A stretch of DNA of 47,851 bases from a virus: the IMG/VR virus record IMGVR_UViG_3300013014_000045, positions 1 through 47,851 of that record; one strand, 5' to 3'. The notes beneath the pieces were generated by a model. The model made no database searches and was not told the origin of the DNA. It saw only the letters and a list, made by a program, of their open reading frames with translations. Numbering within the stretch: position 1 is the first letter of the stretch; every line of letters starts with the position of its first letter. A program made the position numbers and the translations under genes. Of the stretch, positions 2,158 through 28,513 are shown one piece after another.

Positions 2158-2872
2158 ATGAATCAGCCGGTTGTTCCTTTGGCTCTAACCTTATGTCGTA
2201 TTCCCTACCGAGTAAACTGACAAGATCATCAGAGTACTTCTGACCTTTGGTTGGGTACTTCTCCTTCAGGTACTTCTGAGCTTTTGTTATCACGTTCCCT
2301 TTGACATCGACAAGAGACATGTAGTTCTTGATGAGACGCGCGACATCAGCAGTGAAGGAATCCATGTCTAGCTCAGGTTCGGTGCCCTCGGCTTCGAGAA
2401 GGAAAGACAGCTTACGCTTTCTGAGGCTCTCGGCCTGAACTTGGTTGGAGGCTTTCTTGAGTGCCATATCCTCGGCTTTCACGAGGAACTTCTCTATTGG
2501 ATCGTCAGCCTCGACCTTCTTAGTTCCCTGAACTGGAGTGGGGGCTGCAGCTCCGGGAGTGGGTGGAGCGCCAGGAGCAGGAGGGGCGGGTGGAGCGCCG
2601 CCCAGCCCAGCCATCGGGTCAGGAGCTGGAGCTGCAGGATCAAGAGCCGGGGCCGGCCCACCGAGTCCAGCCATCGGGTCAGGAGCGGGAGCGGGTGCGG
2701 GAGCAGCGGGGTCAACCGGAGATGCGGCTGCAGGATCAGCCGGAGGCGCAGCTGCGGGATCAGCAGCAGGATCAGCCGGCGGATCCCCCTCAGCTTCGAG
2801 AAGGAAGCGCATGCTCGTCCCGTAAATTTCCTTGATGATGCTCTTGCGCAGAGCTCTCTTATCCAGTCTCAT
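2117..2872 (-). CDS. Pro/Ala-rich probable virion-internal protein with two prohead-protease-like sites
   Basis: A 251-residue protein coupled by ATGA to the upstream SOD-like gene. It has a basic amphipathic N-terminus (MRLDKRALRKSIIKEIYG), then FLLEAEG at about residue 23. A long low-complexity Pro/Ala/Asp segment follows (residues about 30-115) with a repeated DPMAGLGG unit. A second FLLEAEG occurs near residue 158, and then a helical C-terminal domain of about 90 residues. The FLLE|A pattern matches the T4 gp21 protease consensus (hydrophobic-x-Glu, then Ala/Gly), and the first copy lies where T4 internal proteins have their capsid-targeting peptide. I infer a head core or internal protein that is cut on maturation; the protease itself is not in the window. 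Confidence 0.7.
   Translation of the reverse strand: MRLDKRALRKSIIKEIYGTSMRFLLEAEGDPPADPAADPAAAPPADPAAASPVDPAAPAPAPAPDPMAGLGGPAPALDPAAPAPDPMAGLGGAPPAPPAPGAPPTPGAAAPTPVQGTKKVEADDPIEKFLVKAEDMALKKASNQVQAESLRKRKLSFLLEAEGTEPELDMDSFTADVARLIKNYMSLVDVKGNVITKAQKYLKEKYPTKGQKYSDDLVSLLGREYDIRLEPKEQPADSYATGAKSGGGAAG
2606..2686. repeat. 60-nt-spaced direct repeat in the Pro/Ala-rich gene
   Basis: The 19-base string CCAGCCATCGGGTCAGGAG occurs twice, exactly 60 bases apart, within a longer degenerate GC-rich repeat. It encodes the duplicated DPMAGLGG units. The in-frame spacing (20 codons) is consistent with growth of the linker by tandem duplication. Confidence 0.7.
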
Positions 2873-3594
2873 TTCGCAGCCTCCAGCATCCTTTCAACCC
2901 TGCGAACTCTCTCCTCTATGAGAGCCCAACGAAGCTCCTTCATCATAGCGAAGACGTAGGAGCGGCGATCCTTGAGATAGTCACGGTAATACGAATGCTC
3001 CCAGCAGTCGAGGACGATCACAGGATGGGAAGAGAAGGGAATTCCAGTGTTATGAAGATCAACGACAACGTTGACGTAACGCTTGAGAAGGAAGTTGTAA
3101 GCTGTGACAACCCACCCGTTCCTCGACGCGAGAGCGCATGCGATAAAATCGCGTTGCCATGCGTCAAAGCTTCCGAAATCACGTTCAAGTCGCATGTACG
3201 TGAGTGAATCCATCGCGACATTCGATCTCACGTCGGAGATATTCTCGAAGAATAGACCGTGGAGGAAGGCGGCGTTGACGTTGTGAACCTCGTCCATCTT
3301 CAGGTTTCTGAACGTGGAATTGTTGGGATTCGAATTTTCGCGATCGGCAGTGTCAAGCGCTGCTGAGACCTCATTGGCAGCCTTAACGTAACCGTCCATG
3401 AGTTCCTGGTGTGCAGCCTTGTTCTCCTCGCTGAGGTTCTCTGTCGCGAGATCGTATTTATTGCTGGAGAGGACGTAGGCTTCGTTAAGAGGCTGCGGGC
3501 GCTTCTCCTGTTTCTTCGGCAACGTAAGCGATTCCCTGATCACAGAGACGATGTCCTGGTCAGTTATTCCTTCGATGTTGCTCAGCTTCTTCAT
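2869..3594 (-). CDS. Fe/Mn superoxide dismutase-fold protein
   Basis: A 241-residue protein. Residues of about 105-230 match Fe/Mn superoxide dismutases: FLHGLFFENIS with the second metal ligand at H112, then RDFGSFDAWQRDF, SRNGWVV, and the family signature LDCWEHSYYRDY carrying D196 and H200. The first-ligand helix (around H62, AAHQELMDGY) is recognisable but divergent: the second-shell His normally four residues on is Met. Metal binding looks possible; dismutase activity is uncertain. An extra N-terminal extension of about 45 residues precedes the domain and contains a helix resembling the shared N-terminal motif (IVSVIRESL). The gene is embedded in a run of structural-type genes and coupled by ATGA to 2117-2872, suggesting a virion component rather than a soluble stress enzyme. 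Confidence 0.85.
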   Translation of the reverse strand: MKKLSNIEGITDQDIVSVIRESLTLPKKQEKRPQPLNEAYVLSSNKYDLATENLSEENKAAHQELMDGYVKAANEVSAALDTADRENSNPNNSTFRNLKMDEVHNVNAAFLHGLFFENISDVRSNVAMDSLTYMRLERDFGSFDAWQRDFIACALASRNGWVVTAYNFLLKRYVNVVVDLHNTGIPFSSHPVIVLDCWEHSYYRDYLKDRRSYVFAMMKELRWALIEERVRRVERMLEAAK

Positions 3595-3902: not shown

Positions 3903-5377
3903 TTTCCCTCCTTGATTCCGGCGAGCTGCTTCCACCTTTCCACGCTTCCCTCCGTGAACGTGAAAGTCGGCCCGACCACACGGTTGAGCTCCCTCCTCAT
4001 CGCGCCCTGGTCGATGATATTCATGAGGCTGCTCAGGTTCGCGTTGCGCTCCGCTGGTGTCGCGCCCTTAACTATCGCGGTGGTCCTTATGAAATTATCG
4101 AATGATTGGGATCTCAGGGGTGCTCCACCGCCTGGTCCTCCCCCTCCGGCGCGCCCCGAGCCTCCTGAGCCTCCTGAGCCTCCTGAGCCTCCTGAGCCTG
4201 AACCAGATCCGCCCGGAGATGTGGGAGCTCCAGGTCCTGCGCCCCCAGCGCTGCCTGCGCCCGGTGTTGCCTCGCGGGTACCCGTGAACATTCCTACGAT
4301 CGTCGAGAGTCCTGTCAGGACCAGCGTGTCCGCCAGATCGTAGGTGTCCATGTCACCGGTGTCAACCGTGGTGTTGTCGGTGAAAGCTGAGAAGCACTCC
4401 TTGAACTCTGCGAGAGTAAGGTCTTCTATCTCAGCTGCAAGATCGGTGGCGTCCAGCAAAGAACTGTCAGGCTTGAGGCTAGGAGGTCTCTGCTTGAAGA
4501 TACGAAACGCGTTCTCGATCTTGCCTGCCGCGGTGGTCGAAACCTTGAAGTTGCCGTCGACCGTATCCTTGACGTCGAATCCCTTCGCGGTTGCTCTAGC
4601 AGAAACTTTCTGGTTGAGAACCCCTGGAGCTGGGGCCGATGCCAGGTTGAGGAACTTGAGCTTCACGTTTCCAGAGACTGGACTCGGATCCCCCTCAGCG
4701 TCACGCTCGACGAAGTACAGCTTCCCGGTGGGCACCCTCGCGAACATCGGCGGCATGCCGCGAAGATCGAGCCGAGCAGGAACGAGAGGCGCCGAGGTCT
4801 CGGCACCTATCAGCATGAACTTCGCCTCCCTGATGTAGACCGCGTAACCATCCCCCAGGGCTTTAGCCTCTGAGAATGGAACGGTCTTGGCAGGACCGAA
4901 CCTAGCTATCGGTGGAGGGGCTCCCGGTGGTGCTGAGGTGGGTATTATCTGCATCATGACGACCTGATCGGAGTAGAACTTATCGACCCGCTTGTAGTCA
5001 GTGAGGAGGAGAAGCCTTACCGCGTCCATCGCGTTGAGGATGGAGAACTTCAGGACCTCAGTCTTCGTGATAACGTCGATGAGATCCTTGTGCTTCGATG
5101 TCAAATTCAGGGCTGACATGACGGAGCTTGCCAATCCAGGCGACTCGGACATCTTCTTATTCACGAGATTTATGGACTTGCGGATCCCAGCAGCGGTCAT
5201 AGGCATCTTCTGATCGATGGCGCTCTCGATGTTCGAGAGAGGATCTATCGCCCTTGACGCAAGATCGAGAGCTGACCTGTCAGCCGTTGCCTCCGTCAGG
5301 AAATCCATGCTATAATCACGCAGCGAAATCTCCGCCAGTGTAACGGATTTCTTCTGCTGCTTCTTGACTTCTCTCAT
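3899..5377 (-). CDS. Large structural-type protein with Gly/Ser linker and prohead-protease-like site
   Basis: A 492-residue protein of unrecognised family. I chose the ATG at 5377 (AGGA upstream); the extra 12 codons of the longer frame run back through the upstream stop region. The N-terminus is basic, then DFLTEATAD near residue 25 matches the T4 gp21 cleavage rule (hydrophobic-x-Glu, then Ala). A helical region follows, then a beta-rich Pro-containing middle, and an extreme Gly/Ser/Pro linker (about residues 375-425, made by a 9-base tandem repeat). It ends in an 80-residue helical domain. Proteins with two domains joined by such a linker and a processed N-terminus fit head-internal or head-surface proteins. 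An ATATTTAGA element lies 25 bases upstream of the start. Confidence 0.75.
   Translation of the reverse strand: MREVKKQQKKSVTLAEISLRDYSMDFLTEATADRSALDLASRAIDPLSNIESAIDQKMPMTAAGIRKSINLVNKKMSESPGLASSVMSALNLTSKHKDLIDVITKTEVLKFSILNAMDAVRLLLLTDYKRVDKFYSDQVVMMQIIPTSAPPGAPPPIARFGPAKTVPFSEAKALGDGYAVYIREAKFMLIGAETSAPLVPARLDLRGMPPMFARVPTGKLYFVERDAEGDPSPVSGNVKLKFLNLASAPAPGVLNQKVSARATAKGFDVKDTVDGNFKVSTTAAGKIENAFRIFKQRPPSLKPDSSLLDATDLAAEIEDLTLAEFKECFSAFTDNTTVDTGDMDTYDLADTLVLTGLSTIVGMFTGTREATPGAGSAGGAGPGAPTSPGGSGSGSGGSGGSGGSGGSGRAGGGGPGGGAPLRSQSFDNFIRTTAIVKGATPAERNANLSSLMNIIDQGAMRRELNRVVGPTFTFTEGSVERWKQLAGIKEGK
4158..4199. repeat. 9-bp tandem repeat encoding the GGS linker
   Basis: Four complete copies of GAGCCTCCT plus a partial fifth are seen on the plus strand. 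On the coding strand they give repeated Gly-Gly-Ser. As a perfect short tandem repeat it is a likely site of length variation by slippage. Confidence 0.9.
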
Positions 5378-5401
5378 TTTAGAAATTCCTAGCGTGCGTA
5401 G

Positions 5402-5413
5402 TCTAAATATCAC
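5402..5413 (-). promoter_or_regulatory. ATATTTAG element upstream of structural gene 3899-5377
   Basis: The minus strand reads GTGATATTTAGA 25 bases before the ATG at 5377. The same 12-mer occurs at 21596-21607, with close variants at 23068-23079 and 27050-27062. All are directly upstream of structural-type genes. It also contains the TAG stop of the dCMP deaminase gene. It may be a phage-specific late promoter element; see the finding. Confidence 0.35.
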
Positions 5414-5828
5414 GCTCGTCGGATGATCGACGAACCTTTATGCCTGCATGTCGCAGCAAATCAAGTCCTGAGGTGTCGCGATACTCCTCAAGGTAGACCA
5501 CTTCGTCGATCCGAGCGTTGATGATCGCCTTCGCACACATACGACATGGACTGAGGCTAACATACATCTTCTTGCGCTTCGGGCTGTTGAAGTCAAGCTT
5601 GATAAGAGCGTTGACCTCAGCGTGGATGAAACCTGATTCCCCCGGCATCTCAGACTCACGACAGTTAGACCCTCCTGTATGATCCCCGTTGTAACCGAGG
5701 GATAGGAGCTGCGTATTGTCGTCGGTCACGATTATCGCAGCTACCTTGAAGGAAGGGTCGGCGGAACGACGGGCGATTGTGCTGACAACGTCTCCCCAAA
5801 CCTGATCCCATGTTGGACGGTCACTCAC
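5403..5828 (-). CDS. dCMP deaminase-like cytidine/deoxycytidylate deaminase
   Basis: A 141-residue zinc-dependent deaminase. The zinc-binding and catalytic motifs are complete: H69-A-E71 and P94-C95-xx-C98 (SLSPCRMC). TGGSNCRESE (residues about 51-60) resembles the phosphate or extra-zinc binding loop of dCMP deaminases (T4 gene cd type). The expected reaction is dCMP to dUMP, which would feed thymidylate synthesis by the phage ThyX at 27881-28513. The ATG overlaps the stop of the DHH gene as ATGA. Length and motifs fit dCMP deaminase better than free cytidine deaminase. In a phage that may hydroxymethylate dCMP, this enzyme competes for the same substrate, as cd does in T4. Confidence 0.88.
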   Translation of the reverse strand: MSDRPTWDQVWGDVVSTIARRSADPSFKVAAIIVTDDNTQLLSLGYNGDHTGGSNCRESEMPGESGFIHAEVNALIKLDFNSPKRKKMYVSLSPCRMCAKAIINARIDEVVYLEEYRDTSGLDLLRHAGIKVRRSSDERDI

Positions 5829-6673
5829 GCTCCAGCTCCGTCGAAGATGCTCTCGATGCTCACCCCAGGTGGAAGAGCGAACCCAGCTGCTTTTCTATGA
5901 CCGCCTCCGCCGAAACGCTTCGCGACCTCGCTGACGTCAGCGTCATCATGATGGGCACGGAGGCTCACCTTCACCTGACGTGTCTCATGATCGTAGTACC
6001 AGATGAGCGCGTAATCGCACCTGGGTGAGAGAGCGCTTCCGATCTCAGACATCCAGTGGGGCGAGTTGACGACAAGAACTTCCTTACCGTTAATCTTCCT
6101 GGGGGTGGCATGCTTCGCGATCTTCGATATTACCGTCTTCGAGTACGCTAGGATGTACGCACCGCGCTCCTGGGCGCTGTCCACGGCGGAATCATCAAGA
6201 TATTTGTCAAACTCTTCAAAATCGAAGGGAACCATATCAAACGCAGCCGAGAATTCCTTGGAGTACGGGATCTCCCACTTCCAGAGATCGCGATCCTCTA
6301 TGTGCTTTATCATCCTGGGCGCCTCCTTTCCCGGGTGGAAGAACTTCCACGCCAGCATCGCTCCGCTGTGATTCATGTCGAAATGGGTGCAGGAGATGTC
6401 GTGGAGCTCCACCATCGCGGACTTATGATGATCGAGAATGAGGAGGCTCTTCGCCTCCTTCATGAGCCGTTTGGTTGTGGTGTTGTCATACGAAAAATCC
6501 ACGATCAGAACACTCTTACCGGAGACACTCGGGGGAGGTTCACCGTACTTCGCGGCGCGGTACTCAGCTCGATCTCCCAGAAGCTTCCACGCTGCGTAGG
6601 CCGCGCCGAAACCGTCTGTGCAGTTTGCGTGGTAAATGACGAGATCGACACTAGACGGTTCTAGAATGGACAT
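5825..6673 (-). CDS. DHH/DHHA1-family phosphoesterase
   Basis: A 282-residue protein with the DHH superfamily metal motifs in order: HANCTDGFGAA (residues about 15-25), VDFSYDN, LILDHHKS (the DHH motif, about residue 80), IEDRDLW, and a C-terminal DHHA1-type GGGGHRKAAGF loop. These proteins are two-metal phosphoesterases that degrade oligonucleotides (NrnA/NrnB, RecJ) or cyclic dinucleotides. The domain order and length are closest to NrnA/NrnB-like nanoRNases, but the substrate cannot be decided from sequence. A GAGGAATC SD precedes the ATG. A phage enzyme of this type could recycle short oligonucleotides from host DNA or remove cyclic-nucleotide defence signals; the second idea is speculative. 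Confidence 0.88.
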   Translation of the reverse strand: MSILEPSSVDLVIYHANCTDGFGAAYAAWKLLGDRAEYRAAKYGEPPPSVSGKSVLIVDFSYDNTTTKRLMKEAKSLLILDHHKSAMVELHDISCTHFDMNHSGAMLAWKFFHPGKEAPRMIKHIEDRDLWKWEIPYSKEFSAAFDMVPFDFEEFDKYLDDSAVDSAQERGAYILAYSKTVISKIAKHATPRKINGKEVLVVNSPHWMSEIGSALSPRCDYALIWYYDHETRQVKVSLRAHHDDADVSEVAKRFGGGGHRKAAGFALPPGVSIESIFDGAGA

Positions 6674-6690: not shown

Positions 6691-7266
6691 TTATTCCGCA
6701 GGAATGTCCGAATTACACATGATAGGATGGTGACGAAAACATCTCGGCTCGTACATGCTCTTCCCACCGACCTCGATCTCGAGCTCACTGCTGCTGAGCT
6801 TCGCCGTGTAGTAAGCCTCGTTACCGCAGATCGGGCACACGGCGGAGCATTTCTCTATGCGGGTTGCGTACGGCATCAGTCGTTCGATCTCCTCGAACGG
6901 CTTACAACGTGCGCTTAGATCGAGGCTGGCAACCAGCACAGTAGTCCCCTTCCGCATGATCTGGAGGACCGCTGATGTCACTCCGTCGATCATAAAGGCT
7001 TCATCTATGGCAACAGCGTCGATTGGCTCCTCGTACGACTGGAAGTGGTTCCAGAGCATGCTTCCGGAGCTGACGCAGTGGGCTGGCCAGCAGGCGCCTG
7101 AGTGGGTCGAGATGTTGGAGAGCGAGTACCTCTCGTCCATGGTCGGTTTGTAGGCGACTACTTTTCGACCCTGCAGCTTCAGACGCTCCATGGACGCGAC
7201 AAGCCGGGTGGTCTTCGAGCCCCACATGGGTCCGGTGTAGATGATGAGCTCAGGATTGCTTGGCAT
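6691..7266 (-). CDS. tdk: Thymidine kinase (type II)
   Basis: A 191-residue protein with type II thymidine kinase features: P-loop GPMWGSKT (residues 12-19), AIDEAFMID as Walker B, a zinc ribbon with CPIC and a C-terminal CFRHH, and a thymidine-binding lasso between them. It phosphorylates thymidine (and deoxyuridine) to the monophosphate, salvaging precursors. The ATG has GGGAGGG just upstream and lies inside the end of the cupin gene (17-nt overlap), indicating coupling. The length is usual for bacterial and phage enzymes. Confidence 0.93.
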   Translation of the reverse strand: MPSNPELIIYTGPMWGSKTTRLVASMERLKLQGRKVVAYKPTMDERYSLSNISTHSGACWPAHCVSSGSMLWNHFQSYEEPIDAVAIDEAFMIDGVTSAVLQIMRKGTTVLVASLDLSARCKPFEEIERLMPYATRIEKCSAVCPICGNEAYYTAKLSSSELEIEVGGKSMYEPRCFRHHPIMCNSDIPAE

Positions 7267-7663
7267 TCGCCCTCCCGTAGTCGTCCTCTAGCCTCACCGG
7301 CTCATTATCGTGACGGTCACCGATCTCGATGATCTTACAATCCTCGAGAGCGGTGAGACGGTATGGGCATTCAGAGAGAACATGCAGAATATCACCCTCG
7401 CGAAGGATCCTTGACTGCATCGGATACTTCTCAGGTTTCAGCAATGAGGAGGAGTTTCCAAAATCAACCCTGACAGTGCCGCCTAGGACCGTGAACACCT
7501 CATTCTTGAGCTTATGGTATTTAAAGCTAGTACGATGTCCCTCCTTGATGCTGATGACCTTACCGTGAGTCCCATTCGTAGCGTCCCAGGTTTGTGATTC
7601 TCCCCATGGGTTTTTCTCGATCCTTGAGGTGGAAACCCACGCTTGCTTAGGTGCCCTTCCCAT
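7250..7663 (-). CDS. Cupin, mannose-6-phosphate isomerase type II-like
   Basis: A 137-residue single-domain cupin. The start of the domain has KNPWGESQTW, like the RPWG motif that opens the C-terminal isomerase domain of type II mannose-6-phosphate isomerase/GDP-mannose pyrophosphorylases. It then has SFKYHKLKNEVFTVLGGTV with the His and Glu metal ligands of the first cupin motif, and GDILHV...PYRL for the second. The family isomerises fructose-6-P and mannose-6-P or epimerises nucleotide sugars. It overlaps the sugar epimerase upstream by 17 nt. With the phosphomannomutase at 27069-27872 it suggests a mannose-type sugar supply. It could also be a dTDP-sugar cupin; the reaction is inferred. 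Confidence 0.8.
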   Translation of the reverse strand: MGRAPKQAWVSTSRIEKNPWGESQTWDATNGTHGKVISIKEGHRTSFKYHKLKNEVFTVLGGTVRVDFGNSSSLLKPEKYPMQSRILREGDILHVLSECPYRLTALEDCKIIEIGDRHDNEPVRLEDDYGRANAKQS

Positions 7664-8666
7664 CTAGCCCCCACCATCTCAGCGTTGCATCGAGACCCTC
7701 CTCGAAATGAACCTGGGGCTCCCAATCGAGCGCCCGCTTGACAATGTTGACATCAGCGAGAGTATCACGTACGTCTCCTGCGCGAGCAGGAGCGTGGTTG
7801 ACCTCTAGGTTTGGGAATCGGTCCTTCAGCATGTCAAGAATCTCTACGTTCGCGTATGACTTACCTGACCCAACGTTGAAAGCATGACCACGGAGGTCGT
7901 GCTGGGTCTCAGCAGCTAGACGATTCGCTCGAGCTACATCACCGACATAGACAAGATCTCGGGTCTGGTAACCGTCGCCGTCGGAGCGAAGCGGACGTCC
8001 GTCCTTCAGGGCGGTGCACCATGCCGCAACCGCAGTCGAGTACGGAGACTTGCCGTCCTGCCCTGGTCCGTAGACGTTGAAGTAACGGAGGCAGACACTC
8101 TTCTGCTGGTAGAGACGACCGAATAGGGTCAGGTAGTCCTCGATCATCCGCTTCTGCAGGCCGTAGGGAGACTGGGGGTTTGAGGGTGAGAACTCAGTCG
8201 TCGGGAGCTGTTCAACGTCGCCATAGATCGCTGAAGATGAAGAGAACACGAACTTCGTGCTTCCGCCGCGGATAACATCGAGAAGCGCCAAGGCGCGGGT
8301 GACGTTAAGGTCGTTAGACTCAAAGGGGTGCTCGACAGTGAAACCAACTCGTGGCATCGCCGCGAGATGAAAGATAACATCGTAGCGACCCTCCTTCGAG
8401 CGCTCTAAGATTTCTCGATGGGAGAAGTCTCCCTCAACAACGAGAACAGAGCCTATCTTTCGATCCGACTCTGGATGCTTCAGCTCGAAATCAGGTAGCA
8501 AATCGGCAGGACATGCTCTGAAATTGAGACCGCTTAAAGAGTCGAGAGAGCCGTTGGACATGTCGTCGACAACGTCGACAATGTAATCATGAGCGACAAG
8601 CTCACGAACAACGTGGGAACCGATAAAACCGCATCCGCCCGTTACAAGGGCACGTTTATTGCTCAT
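7647..8666 (-). CDS. NAD-dependent nucleotide-sugar epimerase/dehydratase (SDR, GalE-like)
   Basis: A 339-residue extended short-chain dehydrogenase. It shows the Rossmann glycine motif GGCGFIGS (residues 10-17), a DD pair at the end of strand 2 binding NAD, HLAAMPRV, the SSSSAIYGD catalytic Ser strand, and Y168xxxK172 (PYGLQK). These features place it with UDP-glucose 4-epimerase and related UDP-sugar epimerases. The exact sugar is not readable. It follows the ThyA-fold enzyme by three bases and has GAGGTGATAA as SD. Its place beside a glycosyltransferase suggests it makes or tailors the donor sugar for glycosylation of DNA or virion. Confidence 0.9.
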   Translation of the reverse strand: MSNKRALVTGGCGFIGSHVVRELVAHDYIVDVVDDMSNGSLDSLSGLNFRACPADLLPDFELKHPESDRKIGSVLVVEGDFSHREILERSKEGRYDVIFHLAAMPRVGFTVEHPFESNDLNVTRALALLDVIRGGSTKFVFSSSSAIYGDVEQLPTTEFSPSNPQSPYGLQKRMIEDYLTLFGRLYQQKSVCLRYFNVYGPGQDGKSPYSTAVAAWCTALKDGRPLRSDGDGYQTRDLVYVGDVARANRLAAETQHDLRGHAFNVGSGKSYANVEILDMLKDRFPNLEVNHAPARAGDVRDTLADVNIVKRALDWEPQVHFEEGLDATLRWWGLDGKGT

Positions 8667-8669
8667 TTA

Positions 8670-9647
8670 TCACCTCTTGAAAAAATGGTAACCAGGATGA
8701 TCAGTGCTGATGATGAGACGTCGGGCAAGACCGCTGTCCTTAAACTTCCTAGCGCGGAATGACATCAGGATGCTGCGCCAATCATCGATCAGATTCTTCG
8801 TAACTGGATCTTCGCTAGATTCGCCGAGTCCGGGAGTGAGACCGTCCTTGATGGTGCCCTCGCTAGCGCTCCAGACACCCCTCTCAGCTCTCATCAGATC
8901 GTCGATCGGAAAAATTCGAGGATACGCTGGCATCGGACGGCCAAGACTATCGCTTGAATTCGCAATCGCGTCCAGCATCTCAAAATCGCGTTCATAGCAG
9001 TGTAGTGAGTTAGATGTGTGGACATACTCTCCAAGTTCAACCTCAAGTTCATTTGCAAGGATCTCCTGCATGGTTGTGAAAGCTGGAACATCGTAGGCGA
9101 TTCCCAGGATGATGTCGCTAGACCGCATGTTGACATGCAGGTGGAGCTTGTTGTTCCTGATGAAGAATTGAAGGGCGAGAGTGCATGGAACGTCCTTCAC
9201 CGCGTGGAGTGAGTCATCAGGAGTCCTGATATGGATAACAGCACGACGACTGTCAGGATCACGTTTGAGCTCGCCCTTAACGTAATTCCACTGGTTCAAG
9301 CCACCGTCAGCGATCCGGGGATGAAGCTTGAAGATCCTCGCGCCGTAGGCAGAGTTGGCGGTCTTGCCATCATCGCTGATATCCCTCCAGAAGGAGGCAT
9401 ATCGTGAGATCCACTCGGTGGAGCTGCTTCCGCTCATGTACCACAGGGTCTCAGCGACGAAGTAAGACAGGGAGAAGTTGCGCGCTTCAATGTAGGGCAA
9501 TCGATCACGAGGATTCTTGATCCTGAACTGCACGCCCAGCTTCTCCTTGATCTTCATGCCTCGCGGCGCGGACACGAACTCAGATTCATCGCGGATCATA
9601 CGACACAGGTCAACGTAAGCCTGCGAGAAATTGCTGTAGACGTTCAT
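8670..9647 (-). CDS. ThyA-fold enzyme with dCMP-type active site: probable dCMP hydroxymethylase
   Basis: A 325-residue protein of the thymidylate synthase superfamily. I chose the ATG at 9647 because it forms ATGA with the kinase stop; a GTG at 9659 would add four residues. Conserved features are the phosphate-binding DSRR (R134-R135), catalytic C155 in DVPCTLALQFF, MRSSDIILGI, and H216/Y218 in LHCY. The residue aligning with E. coli ThyA Asn177, which reads dUMP, is Asp (D186 in GIAYDVPAF). In T4 dCMP hydroxymethylase the matching residue is also Asp (D179), and in thymidylate synthase Asn-to-Asp is known to shift preference to dCMP. Since ThyX is encoded at 27881-28513, I infer this enzyme makes 5-hydroxymethyl-dCMP. 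Plain thymidylate synthase is less likely. Confidence 0.85.
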   Translation of the reverse strand: MNVYSNFSQAYVDLCRMIRDESEFVSAPRGMKIKEKLGVQFRIKNPRDRLPYIEARNFSLSYFVAETLWYMSGSSSTEWISRYASFWRDISDDGKTANSAYGARIFKLHPRIADGGLNQWNYVKGELKRDPDSRRAVIHIRTPDDSLHAVKDVPCTLALQFFIRNNKLHLHVNMRSSDIILGIAYDVPAFTTMQEILANELEVELGEYVHTSNSLHCYERDFEMLDAIANSSDSLGRPMPAYPRIFPIDDLMRAERGVWSASEGTIKDGLTPGLGESSEDPVTKNLIDDWRSILMSFRARKFKDSGLARRLIISTDHPGYHFFKR

Positions 9648-10171
9648 AACTTCAACCACTCCCTGATTTCTAGCGTCTCACGCTCGAGATTCTCGTCATC
9701 AACCCAGACAGTGAGGACCTCACATCTCGTCCACTTCGCGAACTCCTCATAGAGAGAGTCAAGCCCTTCGAGCGTGTTAGAGTCAATGTAGCTGTGGAGG
9801 TCATCACGTATCCCATTATAGCTCTTCCTGCGACAGATAACAATCTTGCCACCGGCTTTCGCAAACTTTTCGTCAACCTTACGAAGAATCTCGTCGTCGG
9901 TCTCACGGTCGAAGTACCTCGAGTAGACCCATTCCGACGGGTAGTGTCTGTCGAGGATGGCGCTGGGCTTCGTCTGGCAGATGAAGTCAATCAGAAACGT
10001 GCCTCCGAAAACTAGAAGATTCTTAAAATAACTCGGGTCCTTCAGGTCCGTCGTCCACTCTCCGGTATTCTTGAAGACCGGAACCTCCAGCTGACGTGAA
10101 AGCTCAGCGGCAATCTCAGATTTTCCGCATCGATCCGGACCTTCGAAGCTTAGAAGAATGTTGCCGCTCAT
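9644..10171 (-). CDS. Deoxynucleoside-monophosphate kinase (thymidylate kinase-like)
   Basis: A 175-residue P-loop kinase. It shows Walker A GPDRCGKS (residues 11-18), the DRHYPSEWVY motif typical of thymidylate kinases (DR-YxxS), an Arg-rich lid (CRRKSYNGIRDD) and a short C-terminus. It should phosphorylate dNMPs with ATP. It is coupled by ATGA on both sides, between the glycosyltransferase and the ThyA-fold enzyme. That position suggests the role played in T4 by gp1, which phosphorylates hydroxymethyl-dCMP that host kinases cannot use. Thymidylate kinase activity on dTMP is the alternative. Confidence 0.85.
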   Translation of the reverse strand: MSGNILLSFEGPDRCGKSEIAAELSRQLEVPVFKNTGEWTTDLKDPSYFKNLLVFGGTFLIDFICQTKPSAILDRHYPSEWVYSRYFDRETDDEILRKVDEKFAKAGGKIVICRRKSYNGIRDDLHSYIDSNTLEGLDSLYEEFAKWTRCEVLTVWVDDENLERETLEIREWLKL

Positions 10172-11235
10172 GCCTTGATCTCACCACGAGCGACAGCTTC
10201 GATGATATCAACACGATGCTCAGGTCGAATGTCAACCACCTTACGAAGAGCCCTTTCCTGCTCCTGGACAATCTGCGCTCGATCAGCAGCGGACATACCG
10301 CTCAGGACGTTGATGCACCTGATCACGTCCTCAGGACTGTCCACGATGAACTCACCGAGACCAACAGGACGGGCGTGGACATACTCATTCGGGATGAGAG
10401 CTACGACACCGGACATCACGCCCTCCATGAAACGACCCGTGATATTCCCGTAGGGGGTGTACTCGTCCTTCGTGATATGCGTCACCGTGATCGATCGATT
10501 GAATGCCTCGAAGATCTCATTGTAGGCAAGTCGCCCACCGAAAGAGACATGCGGATTCTCCCTCAAAAGCTCCGAAGGATCACGACGCTCGGGACTACGC
10601 TCGAGCCAGTTACCGTAGACCATCGTCTGGATTCCACGATCTCGAAGGCCACGAGCGGGCATGCTGTAGTACTTCTTGAACTGCTTGTCACGCTCGTAGT
10701 TGTTTCCTACGTAAGTGTAATTGTAGGAATAGCTAGTCGTCGGCGTCCTACGATTGAGGTAGTTGCACCATGGAAGCGTCAGGCGCTTCCGCGTCTGGAC
10801 CCGCGGGTTCGCGCAGGCATCCGTCAGAACAGCGTTCGGGAACATGAGCTCCTCCTCAGGAGTCATCTTCAGGTCACCGTCGTGGATGATGATGGGAACA
10901 CCCTTCTTGTGGTAGTACTCGAGGCATGACATCTGCCGACGGTAGTCAGGTTCCGTGGCTCGATCGCCCCCAACTTTCTCATCATTCTTCCAGGTCGGCC
11001 AGCGCCACTCGAAGTAAACGACATCGACGTCTGGAAACCCGCCGTCGGCGTGGAGAGCGACGCTCTTGTACGGCTTCTCATCCCGCTGAGCCTGAAGGCG
11101 CGTGACCTGATGCCCTCTCTTCAGCATCTCCTCGACAAAATCAACACGATTTCCACGCTCGCCGTCAGGCGTTGCGATGATAGTGTTCTCCTCGAAAGGC
11201 GTGAGGTATCCCCAGAAGCTGTAGCCGATTCTCAT
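10168..11235 (-). CDS. Glycosyltransferase, GT-B-like; candidate DNA glycosyltransferase
   Basis: A 355-residue protein. I chose the ATG at 11235, with AGGAGACAG upstream, because it gives the usual N-terminus MRIGYSFWGYLTPFEENT; a start at 11268 overlaps the polymerase stop. The pattern is GT-B: an N-terminal Rossmann half with RVDFVEEMLKRGHQV and DVVYFEW, a linker, and a C-terminal half with YVGNNYERDKQF, VSFGGRLAYNEIFEAFNRS and ITGRFMEGVMSGVVALIP, which is the sugar-nucleotide-binding site of GT4-like enzymes. It transfers a sugar from a nucleotide donor; the acceptor is unknown. Coupling to the kinase and the hydroxymethylase candidate suggests it modifies hydroxymethylcytosine in DNA, but virion or host-surface glycosylation is possible. 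Confidence 0.82.
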   Translation of the reverse strand: MRIGYSFWGYLTPFEENTIIATPDGERGNRVDFVEEMLKRGHQVTRLQAQRDEKPYKSVALHADGGFPDVDVVYFEWRWPTWKNDEKVGGDRATEPDYRRQMSCLEYYHKKGVPIIIHDGDLKMTPEEELMFPNAVLTDACANPRVQTRKRLTLPWCNYLNRRTPTTSYSYNYTYVGNNYERDKQFKKYYSMPARGLRDRGIQTMVYGNWLERSPERRDPSELLRENPHVSFGGRLAYNEIFEAFNRSITVTHITKDEYTPYGNITGRFMEGVMSGVVALIPNEYVHARPVGLGEFIVDSPEDVIRCINVLSGMSAADRAQIVQEQERALRKVVDIRPEHRVDIIEAVARGEIKA

Positions 11236-11264: not shown

Positions 11265-14200
11265 TCATCCCATGATTTTCATCTTACGCTGCTTTGTCGA
11301 GAGACCGAAATCAGATCGATCGACCTCGGCAACGCAGAGGGAGTACGGTTCAAACCCAGCCAGACTGTCCCAGTCCCACATGAACATCTTCTCCATGTTC
11401 CCTGACTCTCCCAGCGCCTGAAGCATCAGGTACGGCTTTCCGTTCTTTGTCTTCTTCTCGACGGAGCTCACGATGACGAACCAGTAGATATCAAGTCTCT
11501 CCCAATTGTCGATGGAGTAAACCTCCTTGTCGCTAAACTTCTGACGAAGCTCAGGAGGGATGAGGGAGAGAGGATCCATCTTTCCAGAGAGCTCGATCTG
11601 CATGAGTGCCATCTCACGCCGTGTCCACTCAGCCATGCCCTCGGTCTCGAGCAGGAGCTCGCGGAACTTCTTGACCCCACGCTGCGGATCCTTCTTCGCC
11701 CACTTCTTGATATCATCTGCGTTCTCAATGAGGACGTGGTGCATCTGCTTCCAGGATGAGAACTGCCTATCCTTTCCGACAACCTTCATCGATTCGAAAG
11801 CGCCCGCCTTGATGAGTGATTCAAGAGCTCGACGGTTGAACTTCGAGGGCCGCCACTGGCCATCATCCTTCCAGAGCATCTCCTCGACGCTGCGGTACGG
11901 GCGGCAGGCCACGATCTCCTCGATGGCAGTCTCGCCGACGCCCTTGATCGTGTTGAACGATGGGATGAGCAGCTTGCGATCCGAGTCGACAGACCACTGA
12001 TTCGTGGAAAGATTGATGTCGACGTTACCGATCTCGTATCCCATCTTCTTCACGTCGGAGATCGCCTGAGCTCGGTCATCAGGATTTCCGATCATCGACT
12101 CCATGTAAGCGCAGAGCCACTCGGATTCGTAGTAGGTGAGAAGCCAGGCGCAGTAGTAGGAGTCGATCGCGTAAGCCAGCGCGTGTGAGAGGTTGAAACC
12201 GTATCCTGCGAAGAAAAGGATGTCATCCCAGAGCTTCGAAGCGACGGACTCCCTGATGCCATTACCCACCGCGCCGTTGACGAAGCTGTCCTTCATCGCC
12301 TTCGCTTTCTTCATCGACTCCTCAGGATTACCGCCCTGGCGCTTCAGGATGTTCTTTCGAACCTTATCGCACTCGGACTTCGGGAATCCTGCCACCACAT
12401 TGCAGAGCTGCATGAGCTGCTCCTGGAAGATTATGCATCCAAACGTCGGCTCTAGAACCTGCTTGATGAGTGGGTGCTTGTAATCGATATTTCGAGGGTT
12501 GGCTTTCGCTTCGAGGTAGAGCTTGTCAACCTTCGCAGCGAGAGGACCGGGGCGGAAGACCGAGGTCAGCGTTGCGATGTCGATGATGGATCGTGGCTTC
12601 GCATTCTGGAAGAGACGTTGGGCACCCTTGCTGGTGAGTTGGAAGACGCCGGGGGTTCGGGAGGTCGCCTCGTGATAGACATTCTCATACACTTTCTGGT
12701 CATCGAAATCGATCGTGTCCGTAGACATATGCTGATCGAACCAGCCCTTGACCTCCTGGAACGTCGGATTCTTAATCCCGTGATGACGCTGAAGGACAAG
12801 TTCGATCGTTCGGTGGATTGTCCGCAGGGTTTCAAGACCCAGCAGATCGAACTTGACCCACCCGAGCATCTCAAGGTGCTTGTAATTCATGCCCTCGACC
12901 CAGGGGGTCTGCTGCTCTCCCTTCGCCATGATGAGAGGCATACGCTCGGATATCCGCTCCGAGATGATGACACCACCAGCATGTCGACCCAGAGCTTTGT
13001 TCTGCTTGAACAGGACCTTGATGGACTCAGAAACCCGCGGATGACGATCGATGAAGTTTCGGAAGGGCTCGCAGTGCTCGTAGCTATCCTCGAAAGTCAG
13101 GACGAAGAGATTCTTATCGTCCCCAACCTTCTTTGTCGCGTTTATGACCTCCTTCTCGACGGTCTTCAGGGCCTCGTTGACCTCCTCCAGCGGGATATCG
13201 TAGAGACGAGAGACGTCGCGGATGAGAGTCTTCAGCTTGAAGGTGTTGTAGTTCGAGATCGGAACGATATTCTCGCTGCCGAATTTCTCACGAAGGATCG
13301 ACAGCAGGAGATCTCGGTTCTCGACATCGGTGTCGATGTCAGGTAGGCCCTCACGGTCGGGGGACAGGAAGCGCTCGAAGAGAAGGCCGTACTTGATCGG
13401 ATCGACATCAGTGATTCCTAGGACGTAGCAGACGAGGGACCCTGCACCGGAACCTCGGCCCACCCCGACGAACATCTGCTCCTTCGCGGCGGAGATGATT
13501 TCCTTCATCGTGAGGAAGTAAGATGCGAAATCCTTCTGCTTGATGACTTCGAGCTCGTACTTCGCGCGGTCGACGTACTCCTGATTCTTGTCGAACCCCT
13601 TCGCGACTAGACCAATCTCCACCGACTCCTCTAGCGCCTCATTCGCAGTCTTGTCCTTCGGGATGACGTAGCTAGGCAGTTTCACGGAGCGATCGGGCTG
13701 GACATCACCGATCTCCTCGTGAGCTAGATGCCAGGTGCGCTCGACCGCATTGCGGACAAGATCCTCCTCACCACGATAGAAATCATCGGTTCCTCGGGAG
13801 ATCAGGAACTCATCCCAGACCTGGGATGCATTCTTCGGGTAGAGCTCGCACTTCAGCTGATCCTTGCTCTTCGGGATCGAGTCAGCGGAGAGATCGGCGT
13901 AGTTGAGCCAGCCGAGCTTCTTGTAGATCTCGCGCTCCTTCCAGTGTTCCGGACGTGCGTAGTGGGAGTCGCAGGTGACGACAAGTTGGTCTGTCATGCC
14001 CTGACGCTTGGCAAACTCCATGATTGCGCGGTTAACGATGTGCTGGGCCGGCAGACGGTTGAACTGGAGCTCAAGCATCACATTCTTACGACCTACCGCC
14101 CAGGCGAGACTGTCGAACGAGTTGCCGACTCGATTGATGACCCGCTCCATGATCGATGGATCATTGAGGAGACGACTGTTTAGCGTCTCGAAGCTGTGCT

Positions 14201-14891
14201 CCTGCAGCTCACGGAAGACCTCGAAAGCGAGCGGACCACCGATGCAGGCCGTCGAGACGATGAAGCTGTCATCCTCCTGCGCTTCCTTGAGCATCGCAAG
14301 ATCGACTCGAGGGAACTTGTAGAAGCCCTCGGAGTAGCCACGGCTCACGAGACCGAAGAGCTTCTCGAGCCCCTTACTGTGACGTGGTAGAACAACGAGG
14401 TGGTGACGACGGTTGATCGGGTTGAAGTGCTTCGTTGACTTCGTCTCGTCCTCGTTCTCGATCGTGAGAGCGGAAGCGTCGGTGTCGATGCCGATCGTCT
14501 CATCATTCTCATCAGTGACAGCAACGATCGGAGTCACGATGCTCTCGGGCTTCTCCTTCGCCTTCGCGTGGCTCTTACGATCACGCTTGAGCTGCTGCCA
14601 CTCATGGTACTCAGCCTGCCAAGCGTTGAGGTCGGGGTGGATGTACATCTCGCAACCAGGAATGAACTTCAGGTCCTTCCCAGCTTTCCTGAGCTTGTCA
14701 GCGTGGAGCCAGGCATGACCGAAGCCGTTCATCTGACCGTGATCAGTTAGTGCCCAGCCGTCGAGACCATTCTCAAGGCAGAAGTCGATGTGCTCCTGCG
14801 GGTAACCGAGACCATCGAACGTCGAGAAACCCGAGTGAGAATGAAGCCCAAAGAACTTCTCTGGACGCTTGAACTCGCTACCGTCTGCCAT
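11265..14891 (-). CDS. dnaE: DNA polymerase III alpha subunit (C-family, DnaE-like)
   Basis: A 1208-residue replicative polymerase close to full bacterial DnaE length. The N-terminal PHP domain is intact in its visible motifs (GLHSHSGFSTFDG with H17/H19, ALTDHGQMNGF, PGCEMYI, CDSHYA). The palm carries GVGRGSGAGSLV, ERFLSPDREGLPDIDTD with the first two catalytic Asp residues, and VKFDLLGLETL with the third. FGCIIFQEQLMQLC and VFRPGPL also match DnaE. It polymerises DNA from dNTPs. T4-like phages normally use a B-family polymerase, so this is an unusual replacement. An extended -10 promoter candidate lies just upstream (14912-14920) and TGGAG is the SD. The stop overlaps the glycosyltransferase reading frame region. 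Confidence 0.96.
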   Translation of the reverse strand: MADGSEFKRPEKFFGLHSHSGFSTFDGLGYPQEHIDFCLENGLDGWALTDHGQMNGFGHAWLHADKLRKAGKDLKFIPGCEMYIHPDLNAWQAEYHEWQQLKRDRKSHAKAKEKPESIVTPIVAVTDENDETIGIDTDASALTIENEDETKSTKHFNPINRRHHLVVLPRHSKGLEKLFGLVSRGYSEGFYKFPRVDLAMLKEAQEDDSFIVSTACIGGPLAFEVFRELQEHSFETLNSRLLNDPSIMERVINRVGNSFDSLAWAVGRKNVMLELQFNRLPAQHIVNRAIMEFAKRQGMTDQLVVTCDSHYARPEHWKEREIYKKLGWLNYADLSADSIPKSKDQLKCELYPKNASQVWDEFLISRGTDDFYRGEEDLVRNAVERTWHLAHEEIGDVQPDRSVKLPSYVIPKDKTANEALEESVEIGLVAKGFDKNQEYVDRAKYELEVIKQKDFASYFLTMKEIISAAKEQMFVGVGRGSGAGSLVCYVLGITDVDPIKYGLLFERFLSPDREGLPDIDTDVENRDLLLSILREKFGSENIVPISNYNTFKLKTLIRDVSRLYDIPLEEVNEALKTVEKEVINATKKVGDDKNLFVLTFEDSYEHCEPFRNFIDRHPRVSESIKVLFKQNKALGRHAGGVIISERISERMPLIMAKGEQQTPWVEGMNYKHLEMLGWVKFDLLGLETLRTIHRTIELVLQRHHGIKNPTFQEVKGWFDQHMSTDTIDFDDQKVYENVYHEATSRTPGVFQLTSKGAQRLFQNAKPRSIIDIATLTSVFRPGPLAAKVDKLYLEAKANPRNIDYKHPLIKQVLEPTFGCIIFQEQLMQLCNVVAGFPKSECDKVRKNILKRQGGNPEESMKKAKAMKDSFVNGAVGNGIRESVASKLWDDILFFAGYGFNLSHALAYAIDSYYCAWLLTYYESEWLCAYMESMIGNPDDRAQAISDVKKMGYEIGNVDINLSTNQWSVDSDRKLLIPSFNTIKGVGETAIEEIVACRPYRSVEEMLWKDDGQWRPSKFNRRALESLIKAGAFESMKVVGKDRQFSSWKQMHHVLIENADDIKKWAKKDPQRGVKKFRELLLETEGMAEWTRREMALMQIELSGKMDPLSLIPPELRQKFSDKEVYSIDNWERLDIYWFVIVSSVEKKTKNGKPYLMLQALGESGNMEKMFMWDWDSLAGFEPYSLCVAEVDRSDFGLSTKQRKMKIMG

Positions 14892-23107: not shown

Positions 23108-23491
23108 CTAGTAGCCGTCTCTCAATCTTCGGCAGATCTTGTCGTGCTTTCGAAGATACGCTGAGTGGAGCTCGTCAGGTGTAACACCCACCAGCTTCAA
23201 CGTTGTGTAGAAGTAATTTAAGCCGTCGACCATCTCCTCCAGGAACGCATCTCGATCGAGTTGGGAGACCTCAGTCTGCCGATGGGGTTTCGCGTTCTTA
23301 AGCTCAGCCAGCGACTCAAAAATCTCTTCCACACCCCGCAGGGTAGTATCTCGAACTAGCGTCTGGGATTCTTTCTTCGAGAGATCGATCGGCCACTGGG
23401 GATAGTAGCCCGGGAACCTCTCGCAGAGCATCTGCATGAACTCCTCACGGAGCTCAAACATCTCGTCGAGCTTATCAGTTGACTTCGGCAT
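23108..23491 (-). CDS. All-alpha dUTPase/dCTPase-like NTP pyrophosphatase
   Basis: A 127-residue protein. I chose ATG 23491 (GAGGGCATGCAGA as SD); the longer frame from 23596 is out-of-frame neighbour coding. It matches dimeric all-alpha dUTPases: a first helix with E55/E56/E59 (GVEEIFESLAELKNAKPHR), EEMVDGLNYF with the E-E-x-x-D metal site, a GVTPDELHSAY turn, and YLRKHDKICRRLRDGY. Members hydrolyse dUTP, and T4 gp56 also hydrolyses dCTP. Products would be dUMP for ThyX and dCMP for the candidate hydroxymethylase, and removal of dCTP would keep plain cytosine out of phage DNA. Specificity between dUTP and dCTP is not readable. It overlaps the upstream stop. Confidence 0.85.
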   Translation of the reverse strand: MPKSTDKLDEMFELREEFMQMLCERFPGYYPQWPIDLSKKESQTLVRDTTLRGVEEIFESLAELKNAKPHRQTEVSQLDRDAFLEEMVDGLNYFYTTLKLVGVTPDELHSAYLRKHDKICRRLRDGY

Positions 23492-23711
23492 TCTGCATGC
23501 CCTCAGTGCTGAGTTCCTCAGCACGATCCTGGAGACGCTGAACAGCGTCCATGAACGCCTGATTCTCATCATCACCGATGATGAGCTTCGAACCATCGAC
23601 CGTCAGTCGAACAGTCCTGAGGTTATCGACGATATCAGTTCCAGTCAGCAGAGCTAGCTGAAGAAGGTCGACGATGCGGATGATAGCATGATCCGAAAGT
23701 GTAACAGTCAT
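23475..23711 (-). CDS. Small protein of unknown function
   Basis: A 78-residue acidic protein with good SD AGAGGAGAC. The pattern is a helix (DHAIIRIVDLLQLALLTGTDI), two strands (LRTVRLTVDGSKLIIG), then a helix (AFMDAVQRLQDRAEEL). I do not recognise a family. Its end overlaps the start of the dUTPase-like gene by 17 nt, so the two are probably co-translated. Confidence 0.7.
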   Translation of the reverse strand: MTVTLSDHAIIRIVDLLQLALLTGTDIVDNLRTVRLTVDGSKLIIGDDENQAFMDAVQRLQDRAEELSTEGMQNAEVN

Positions 23712-27068: not shown

Positions 27069-27872
27069 TCAATACGGTGGCGTATACATCCCCTCAGGAA
27101 AATGACCGAGGCTTAGCATGATCTCGTCAATGATCCCTGCAGTTTGATCGCAGTCTTGCACCTTGATAGAACGACCGAACGGTTTGAGAGCTTCGTATAT
27201 CTCGAAATCATTTCCCATAGGGTCGCACCGATCGCCGATGAACCAGACCACGTCGGACGGGAAATGACGCAGCGTGTATGATTTGTCCCAACCCTCAGGG
27301 TAGATGTCGAAAGAAGTTGACCCGCCGAGCTTGACCGTGAGCTTCTTGTTCAAGGCCAGCAGTCGCTCACGAAGAGTGACGAGAAGACCCATTCTAAAGT
27401 TAGAGCGCTGATCGATCTTCTCGAAAGCCTCGCGATCCCCGTGATCAGACTCTCTCCCTATCGGACACCAGTTCATCATCGAGCCGCGATACGACACGAA
27501 CTGACCTGTCAACGGGAGCTCAGGAAAGACCTCGATCAGATCACCCTGCATGGAGTTGAGAACCTTATGGAGATAGCGCCATTCGCTCCCCATGTAATCT
27601 CGCATCGAGATAGGCGGAAGGGTAGAGGTCCAACTTTCATTCTCATAGACCCACCTCTCAGTCCCGTTGCAAGAAAATACCTCCAAACCTCTCTTGAACA
27701 GCTCATGATCGACCTGCTCGATGACATACGCGAGCGTCGATCCTGTCAAGATCCCAACTCTAGTATATCCCAAAAGCTCGATGAGCTTTTCTCGATTCTT
27801 TTCAGTGATTTTCTTGCGAGGTGGTGTCAGAGTGCCGTCAAGATCAAAGAGGATGATTGTTCTGCTGTTCAT
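27069..27872 (-). CDS. Eukaryote-type phosphomannomutase (HAD family)
   Basis: A 267-residue HAD enzyme. It has the nucleophile motif FDLDGTLTPPR (D10 and D12) and GILTGST. Two segments are diagnostic of eukaryotic-type phosphomannomutase: SYRGSMMNWCPIGRES (sugar-phosphate contact) and GGSTSFDIYPEGWDKSYTLRH. FIGDRCDPMGNDFEI supplies the late Asp residues. The reaction is mannose-6-P to mannose-1-P, the step before GDP-mannose. Length (family about 245-260) fits. Together with the isomerase-like cupin at 7250-7663 it points to a phage-made mannose-type donor. It is coupled closely downstream of ThyX (eight-base gap). Confidence 0.92.
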   Translation of the reverse strand: MNSRTIILFDLDGTLTPPRKKITEKNREKLIELLGYTRVGILTGSTLAYVIEQVDHELFKRGLEVFSCNGTERWVYENESWTSTLPPISMRDYMGSEWRYLHKVLNSMQGDLIEVFPELPLTGQFVSYRGSMMNWCPIGRESDHGDREAFEKIDQRSNFRMGLLVTLRERLLALNKKLTVKLGGSTSFDIYPEGWDKSYTLRHFPSDVVWFIGDRCDPMGNDFEIYEALKPFGRSIKVQDCDQTAGIIDEIMLSLGHFPEGMYTPPY

Positions 27873-27880
27873 GTCTTACC

Positions 27881-28513
27881 TTAATATCCGAACGCTTCGA
27901 TTGTATGTTTGAATGGGTCGCCTGGAATCTCTCGAACTTGTGCTAACATCTCCTCGGCAAGCCAGCAGATCTCTCGCTGTGCGTCATGCTTCATCCGGAG
28001 CCCGAGAAAATGACTGAAAGAGCGCCAGTTGAACATGATATCAGCCGTGATCTGGTTCCCATAGGGAAGGTAGAAACGAGCGCTTTCCTTGGCGCGCTTG
28101 CGACTCATTCCGCCTGCCACAAGACGCTCGAGCGTATCATGGTAGCGCATGAGAGCGTCCTCCATGAAAGCGATGTAGCGGGCCTGCTCATCGAGCGGCC
28201 AGTCTTTCGGGAGGTAGTACTTGTCATCCTTCAACTCTTTGTACCTTGCGCTTTCGGCGTTGATCGAGACACCGATCCGGTGCTTGAGGAGCTGGATATG
28301 GGTCGCGATATCGGTCGTCACCAGGAAGCTGATGCTGCTCTTCTCAAATGGAGACTCATGTCCATTCTCGGCCAGCATTTTCAGGAGCGAGGGGATTCGT
28401 GATTGCTTCTCCCCGGAGAGCTCCCGGCTTGTGCTCGTCCACGCCGAGAGAGCGTGGGTCTCGTCGCCACCATACCAACCGACCAATTCTACCTTGTTGT
28501 CCTGAAAGGGCAT
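27881..28513 (-). CDS. thyX: Flavin-dependent thymidylate synthase ThyX
   Basis: A 210-residue protein. The ThyX signature (R-H-R-x-x-S-x-N-x-x-S-x-R-Y type) is present as KHRIGVSINAESARY with Arg-to-Lys at its first position. Also present are HESPFEKSSISFLV, the PYGNQITADIMFNWRSFSHFL region with catalytic Arg, and H and D residues binding FAD. It methylates dUMP to dTMP using methylene-tetrahydrofolate and NADPH. GGAGTAAG upstream of ATG 28513 is a good SD. Its presence means the ThyA-fold enzyme at 8670-9647 is not needed for dTMP, supporting a different job for that enzyme. The 5' end overlaps the membrane-protein gene by 158 nt. Confidence 0.95.
   Translation of the reverse strand: MPFQDNKVELVGWYGGDETHALSAWTSTSRELSGEKQSRIPSLLKMLAENGHESPFEKSSISFLVTTDIATHIQLLKHRIGVSINAESARYKELKDDKYYLPKDWPLDEQARYIAFMEDALMRYHDTLERLVAGGMSRKRAKESARFYLPYGNQITADIMFNWRSFSHFLGLRMKHDAQREICWLAEEMLAQVREIPGDPFKHTIEAFGY

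Follow-up and report, generated by a model that had tools for sequence, protein, structure and literature searches.

The stretch of DNA analysed here, referred to as the window, is IMG/VR virus record IMGVR_UViG_3300013014_000045 (positions 1-47,851; 47,851 nt), a comparison of which with the DNA of known phages returned no similarity match. Its minus strand carries a run of genes that encodes, in transcription order, the alpha subunit of DNA polymerase III (PolIII alpha), a glycosyltransferase (GT), a P-loop kinase, a ThyA-fold protein, a GalE-like epimerase and a cupin, with genes for thymidine kinase, a DHH protein and dCMP deaminase following 3' of the cupin gene. The genes of the run, together with three located elsewhere in the window, are as follows.

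11265..14891, minus strand: DNA polymerase III alpha subunit, first gene of the run (Pfam DNA_pol3_alpha, E 1e-60; PHROG DNA polymerase); adjoins the GT gene in relatives
10168..11235, minus strand: glycosyltransferase of GT-B fold (start at 11235; a longer ORF from 11268 is possible)
9644..10171, minus strand: P-loop deoxynucleotide kinase (P-loop motif; profile against PDB)
8670..9647, minus strand: predicted ThyA-fold deoxycytidylate hydroxymethylase (residue signature; best PDB match MilA)
7647..8666, minus strand: GalE-like nucleotide-sugar 4-epimerase, extended SDR (TIGR01179 below cut-off; PDB 4zrm)
7250..7663, minus strand: cupin of the mannose-6-phosphate isomerase (PMI) C-terminal type, function uncertain (PF01050, E 3e-5)
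6691..7266, minus strand: thymidine kinase, conserved neighbour (PF00265, E 3e-35)
5825..6673, minus strand: DHH phosphoesterase-like protein, conserved neighbour (PHROG 4771, E 2e-81)
5403..5828, minus strand: dCMP deaminase (PF00383, E 3e-20; PHROG dCMP deaminase, 1e-39)
27881..28513, minus strand: ThyX flavin-dependent thymidylate synthase (PF02511, E 1e-37; TIGR02170 over cut-off)
27069..27872, minus strand: eukaryotic-type phosphomannomutase-like HAD protein (PF03332, E 8e-32; PDB PMM2, E 2e-32)
23108..23596, minus strand: nucleotide pyrophosphohydrolase (PHROG 12184, E 1e-12; PHROG 173, E 4e-8; no match in a Pfam search), a candidate dCTP-removing enzyme

Other ORFs in the window include one at 2869-3594 with an Fe/Mn superoxide dismutase C-terminal domain (PF02777, E 7e-18), which is unusual in a phage, and one at 24614-26182 that encodes a leucine-rich-repeat-variant or HEAT-like repeat protein.

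The preliminary description had proposed a cassette for glycosylated cytosine comprising the five genes from the GT to the cupin, and the positions, order and minus-strand orientation that it gave for these ORFs were confirmed. The ATGA overlaps that it reported were also found in the sequence, that between the GT and kinase genes at 10168-10171 and that between the kinase and ThyA-fold genes with its ATG at 9647 and the stop codon at 9644-9646; a further ATGA overlap is present between the polymerase gene and the longer GT ORF. The GT start at 11235, which set the end of the proposed cassette, is associated with an AGGAG ribosome site and with a methionine that is conserved among GT homologues. 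The order of all nine genes is retained in five other phage contigs (L002, L003, L004, L006 and L007) at 45-94% protein identity, a recurrence that, judged from the sequences, is not due to chance. Thus the five genes of the cassette are real, but the conserved run is longer than first described, with PolIII alpha upstream and three genes downstream. In L066, L068, L070 (around 4052-5394) and L069 (2961-4303) the PolIII alpha coding region is split at the same residue, over ~1.3 kb, possibly by an intein or intron.

The ThyA-fold protein (Pfam Thymidylat_synt, E 2e-33) has a complete catalytic set, namely Cys146, Glu58, Tyr94, His207 and Tyr209 in E. coli ThyA numbering, and its signature residues are R126, C146, T147, S167, D169, D177, H207 and Y209. 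Asp177 is the cytosine determinant of the ThyA fold, and Asp177 together with a residue other than His at 147, the criterion for a dCMP hydroxymethylase, is found in both the window and T4 proteins; in the same alignment the residue at 177 is Asn in the dUMP hydroxymethylase SPO1 gp29. In the MetaGPA study (PMC8670742), discrimination between modified and unmodified viral contigs was best at positions 177 and 147. The closest PDB structures are those of MilA, the mildiomycin CMP hydroxymethylase (E 4e-43), which shares the cytosine-type Asp but carries Lys and Ala at the positions of Arg126 and Ser167 in the window protein, the residues of deoxyribose-preferring enzymes and thus favouring dCMP (PMC5175136). 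Since the protein combines cytosine-type D177 and T147 with deoxyribose-type S167 and R126, dCMP is its predicted substrate, and these residues support the earlier assignment in predicting a dCMP hydroxymethylase. Besides the window, 9 of 11 related records encode ThyX, so thymidylate need not rely on the ThyA-fold enzyme, which would be free to act on cytosine. The enzyme could instead be a dCMP methylase, forming 5-methyl-dCMP rather than hm-dCMP, a reading with which residue 177 taken alone is compatible; however, the neighbouring GT would make little sense without a hydroxyl group.

The kinase has the P-loop GPDRCGKS and the motif DRHYPSEW; G11, D13, K17, D74 and R75 are invariant. A family check with the single sequence was weakly TMPK/dNK-like, and a profile of 18 relatives searched against PDB matched YorR of SPbeta (8e-14) and, more weakly, deoxyguanosine, thymidylate and cytidylate kinases. 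By these comparisons the protein is a deoxynucleotide kinase by family, in agreement with its original description as a dNMP kinase in that a nucleotide kinase travels with the hydroxymethylase. The proposal of hm-dCMP as its substrate derives from the position of the gene within the cassette.

The GT was more difficult to place. As a single sequence it gave a sub-threshold Pfam match to Glyco_trans_1_2 (22.4 bits against a cut-off of 25) and no PHROG, NCBIfam or meaningful PDB chain match, and tblastn of the GT and kinase against 50,697 phage records returned no match. A profile-guided scan that used GT motifs only recovered 45 viral and 60 bacterial loci. When the 45-member GT profile was searched against all PDB chains, only T4 DNA beta-glucosyltransferase (BGT) was returned at E <1 (E 8.5e-10), and alignment of the family with the BGTs of T4, nattely and ATCCB using hhalign gave an E value of 1.3e-9 over 303 columns. 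An AF2 model based on the 45-sequence alignment had a pLDDT of 93 and pTM of 0.90; an earlier model from 8 sequences (pLDDT 48) was discarded. The structure-based search recommended in the preliminary description, conducted with this model and Foldseek, placed T4 BGT at ranks 1-3 (TM 0.57-0.66; ~15% identity), but other GT-B enzymes, including LPS and lipid GTs, followed by a small margin, and kinship with BGT is more sharply supported by the sequence profile. Residues D121, R182, R268 and E271 (counted from the 11235 start) do not vary within the family; the first aligns with the catalytic base of the T4 enzyme, D100, and the others with its UDP contacts R195, R269 and E272. Most T4 UDP-site residues are invariant in the family, T4 R191 is not conserved, and none of the 45 members matches the Pfam beta-GT model PF09198 at E 0.01; the last two observations indicate a sister of BGT as opposed to a close copy. 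The initial view that the GT is not an obvious T4 alpha-gt or beta-gt is therefore correct with regard to close matches, but the profile and model indicate that it is a remote homologue, with the catalytic Asp retained, and a divergent member of the T4 BGT lineage. Inverting (beta-type) transfer from a UDP-sugar would accordingly be the default expectation for a remote homologue of this kind.

The genomic context of the GT family was examined also. A ThyA-fold gene lies beside the GT gene in 40 of the 45 viral loci (within the fetched flank) and in 57 of the 60 bacterial loci. Among the five viral loci that lack one, L045, L067, L085 and L087 are of short length or stop close to the GT; L086 is a real exception, with no ThyA within 8 kb of the GT. 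Every GT-adjoining ThyA with readable residues has D177 and T147, in a tally in which some viral contigs are counted twice. For an actinomycete gene picked at random, the proportion of genomes with ThyA no more than 8 kb away is roughly estimated at well below 1%. Since the scan was blind to ThyA, the constant pairing with a D177 ThyA ties the GT to hydroxymethylated cytosine, and does so more firmly than homology; the earlier placement of the GT in a cytosine cassette is borne out by this pairing together with the BGT profile and fold match. A reading of the ThyA-fold protein as a conventional thymidylate synthase, and of the GT as a modifier of host LPS, teichoic acid or protein, seems highly improbable: phages commonly carry ThyA and sugar genes, and the fold search does also return GT-B LPS and lipid GTs, but the window protein and all readable GT-adjoining homologues have D177 and T147, ThyX is available, and across the whole PDB the sequence profile matches the T4 DNA glucosyltransferase only. 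Among more distant phages, L010, L011, L077 and L036 have a second, unassigned GT-like ORF after ThyA, a layout similar to that of Agathobaculum phage AB434P2, and a radical-SAM-like ORF precedes the GT in L010, L011 and L077.

It is very likely, then, that the cassette serves cytosine hypermodification, in which a GT of the T4 BGT lineage puts a sugar on hydroxymethylcytosine in phage DNA. In the proposed scheme, for which the order of the genes, their residue signatures, their homology and their linkage are read from sequence and each reaction, the step order and the sugar are deduced, the ThyA-fold enzyme would hydroxymethylate dCMP, the kinase would begin phosphorylation towards hm-dCTP, to be completed by a host kinase, and the phage polymerase would incorporate hm-dCTP into DNA instead of dC. 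The epimerase would convert host UDP-glucose to its C4 epimer. With a UDP-sugar as donor, the GT would then glycosylate the hydroxymethyl group, and inverting transfer on DNA is the most likely form of this step. The sugar-bearing cytosine would most likely act as a shield against bacterial DNA-cutting defences.

The identity of the sugar depends largely on the epimerase (Pfam Epimerase, E 3e-48; PDB UDP-glucose 4-epimerase 4zrm, E 1e-50). Its score against the galE model TIGR01179 (E 1.5e-50; 171.9 bits) does not reach the cut-off of 262.3, and the sequence is accordingly described as an extended SDR of GalE type, in keeping with the GalE-like label first applied though under the GalE cut-off. 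The active site (SSSSAIYG...YGLQK) is without the Glu of decarboxylases or dehydratases, so that a 4-epimerase of a UDP-sugar is likely; an arabinose route via a UXS-type decarboxylase was ruled out on the same basis. A homologue of the epimerase is encoded within 3 kb of the GT in the cassettes of close relatives and of a sister clade in which a UDP-galactopyranose mutase gene lies between ThyA and the GT (L048, L049, L051-L063 and L076, but not L050). The mutase is also present in the L075, L079 and L035 cassettes and in the named phage ATCCB, and is absent from the window clade, including a 142.9 kb relative. The combination of 4-epimerase with mutase in the sister clade favours galactose in the window phage, where it is the most likely sugar on the DNA judging from gene content, and suggests galactofuranose on the DNA of the mutase-bearing phages.

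The sugar could feasibly be plain glucose from host UDP-glucose, with the epimerase and cupin serving another purpose, such as host surface glycans. T4 BGT, the sole PDB match by sequence profile, uses UDP-glucose, and epimerase identity falls to 51% in L002/L007 though their GT is 86% identical, which indicates that the two genes do not travel together. This explanation is considered rather unlikely, however, given the epimerase homologue near the GT in relatives and mutase-bearing phages alike, and the position of the mutase directly between ThyA and GT in the sister clade. A sugar other than plain glucose is probable, and that it is a new one we infer; a literature search found no paper on galactosyl-hmC. 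In L064, L066 and L071 a second, different epimerase-like gene 3' of the GT may change the sugar.

No sugar nucleotidyltransferase was found in any of 12 records, and the host therefore presumably supplies the activated sugar, contrary to the earlier suggestion of a sugar that the phage itself prepares. The phosphomannomutase-like protein at 27069..27872, present in only 3 of the 12 records, may possibly contribute to sugar-phosphate supply. The cupin resembles MannoseP_isomer (PF01050), and its EDDYGR end is as in PMI cupins, but of the PMI metal ligands (HxH, E and H) it has aligned counterparts for the first His and the Glu alone, the second and third His being replaced. Since most of these ligands are lost, the label 'isomerase-like' is unsupported; a cupin profile against PDB returned nothing useful.

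The same GT family occurs in ~60 actinomycete chromosomes and one Rickettsiales MAG contig, L088 (L088-L147 in all), as for example at L098:3472-15734, in clusters that encode a D177 ThyA-fold protein with S or G at 167, a NodU/CmcH-type carbamoyltransferase, the BGT-like GT, a kinase, a methyltransferase, an epimerase and a KdsB-like cytidylyltransferase. From its gene content this cluster is probably an undescribed pathway to a cytosine nucleoside natural product; a literature search found no description of it. The bacterial clusters are unlike DNA modification, so the acceptor of the GT could be a nucleotide. By extension, the phage GT might act on hm-dCMP or hm-dCTP before replication, with the polymerase incorporating the finished nucleotide. 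Such an order would accord with the cytidylate-type hydroxymethylases and carbamoyltransferases that accompany the actinomycete GTs in small-molecule-like clusters, with the location of the phage GT gene directly between the polymerase and kinase genes, and with the action of a related carbamoyltransferase on 5hmdCTP as well as DNA (PMC8670742). It is nevertheless judged improbable, since T4 BGT, the nearest characterised relative, acts on DNA post-replication (PMC13216743) and a literature search found no case of pre-replicative glycosylation. The broader reading, in which galactose is placed on phage hmC, galactofuranose takes its place in the mutase clade, and actinomycete members of the GT family act on hydroxymethylcytosine nucleotides to give an undescribed carbamoylated, glycosylated cytosine natural product, is put forward tentatively, as somewhat less likely than otherwise.

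The GT gene also has a history distinct from that of the adjoining polymerase gene. The window and L004 are 94% identical in the polymerase and 67% in the GT, whereas with L007 the values are 69% and 86%, and DNA identity switches near 11,300 and 10,100, at the edges of the GT gene. Tree tests, with clades named after the identities had been seen, rejected both the GT forced with its polymerase clade (p-AU 1.6e-6) and the polymerase forced with its GT clade (p-AU 2.7e-11). These data indicate that the GT gene has been replaced alone by recombination between phage lineages.

Comparison with established systems reveals both shared and distinct components. T4 (gp42 dCMP hydroxymethylase, gp1 kinase and beta-gt) likewise has a D177-type hydroxymethylase, a nucleotide kinase and a homologous GT-B enzyme, but the window GT, ~15% identical by the fold search, has no Pfam model above cut-off, and the window has a YorR-like kinase, its own epimerase and a polymerase of PolIII type in place of that of T4. 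RB69 (arabinosyl-hmC) and Shewanella phage Thanatos (pentosyl-cytosine) similarly combine hydroxymethylase, GT and phage sugar-nucleotide genes (PMC6024577, PMC12838424); theirs are of the nucleotidyltransferase type, none of which was found in the window, which has the GalE-like 4-epimerase instead. Enterococcus phage VPE25/nattely and Lactobacillus phage ATCCB have kinase, D177 ThyA and BGT in one cluster, as in the window, with UDP-galactopyranose mutase in addition in ATCCB, but their GTs are 33-42% identical to T4 BGT and the window family is far more distant. The cytosines of VPE25 are glycosylated by experiment, being resistant to bisulfite and MspI and cut by PvuRts1I (PMC4999554). The MetaGPA 5-hydroxymethylcytosine carbamoyltransferase systems also pair a D177 ThyA with a hydroxymethyl-decorating enzyme (PMC8670742), in their case a carbamoyltransferase as opposed to a GT; no carbamoyltransferase is present in the window or in 11 related viral records. 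Xanthomonas phage Xp15 (L042:3405-5048) has a D177 ThyA and a carbamoyltransferase, fitting 5-carbamoyloxymethylcytosine. Relative to T4, RB69 and VPE25, the new elements are the GT family itself, the epimerase and mutase that accompany it, and the extension of the family to actinomycetes.

The cassette is thus a testable candidate for a phage cytosine sugar other than glucose or arabinose, and its GT family extends the T4 beta-glucosyltransferase lineage far beyond known phages. Exchange of the GT gene alone would fit host pressure on the displayed sugar, as would be expected were hosts to possess modification-sensing nucleases. The link to actinomycetes suggests a shared origin of DNA-modification and nucleoside-biosynthesis enzymes, and could lead to cytosine natural products of a new class.
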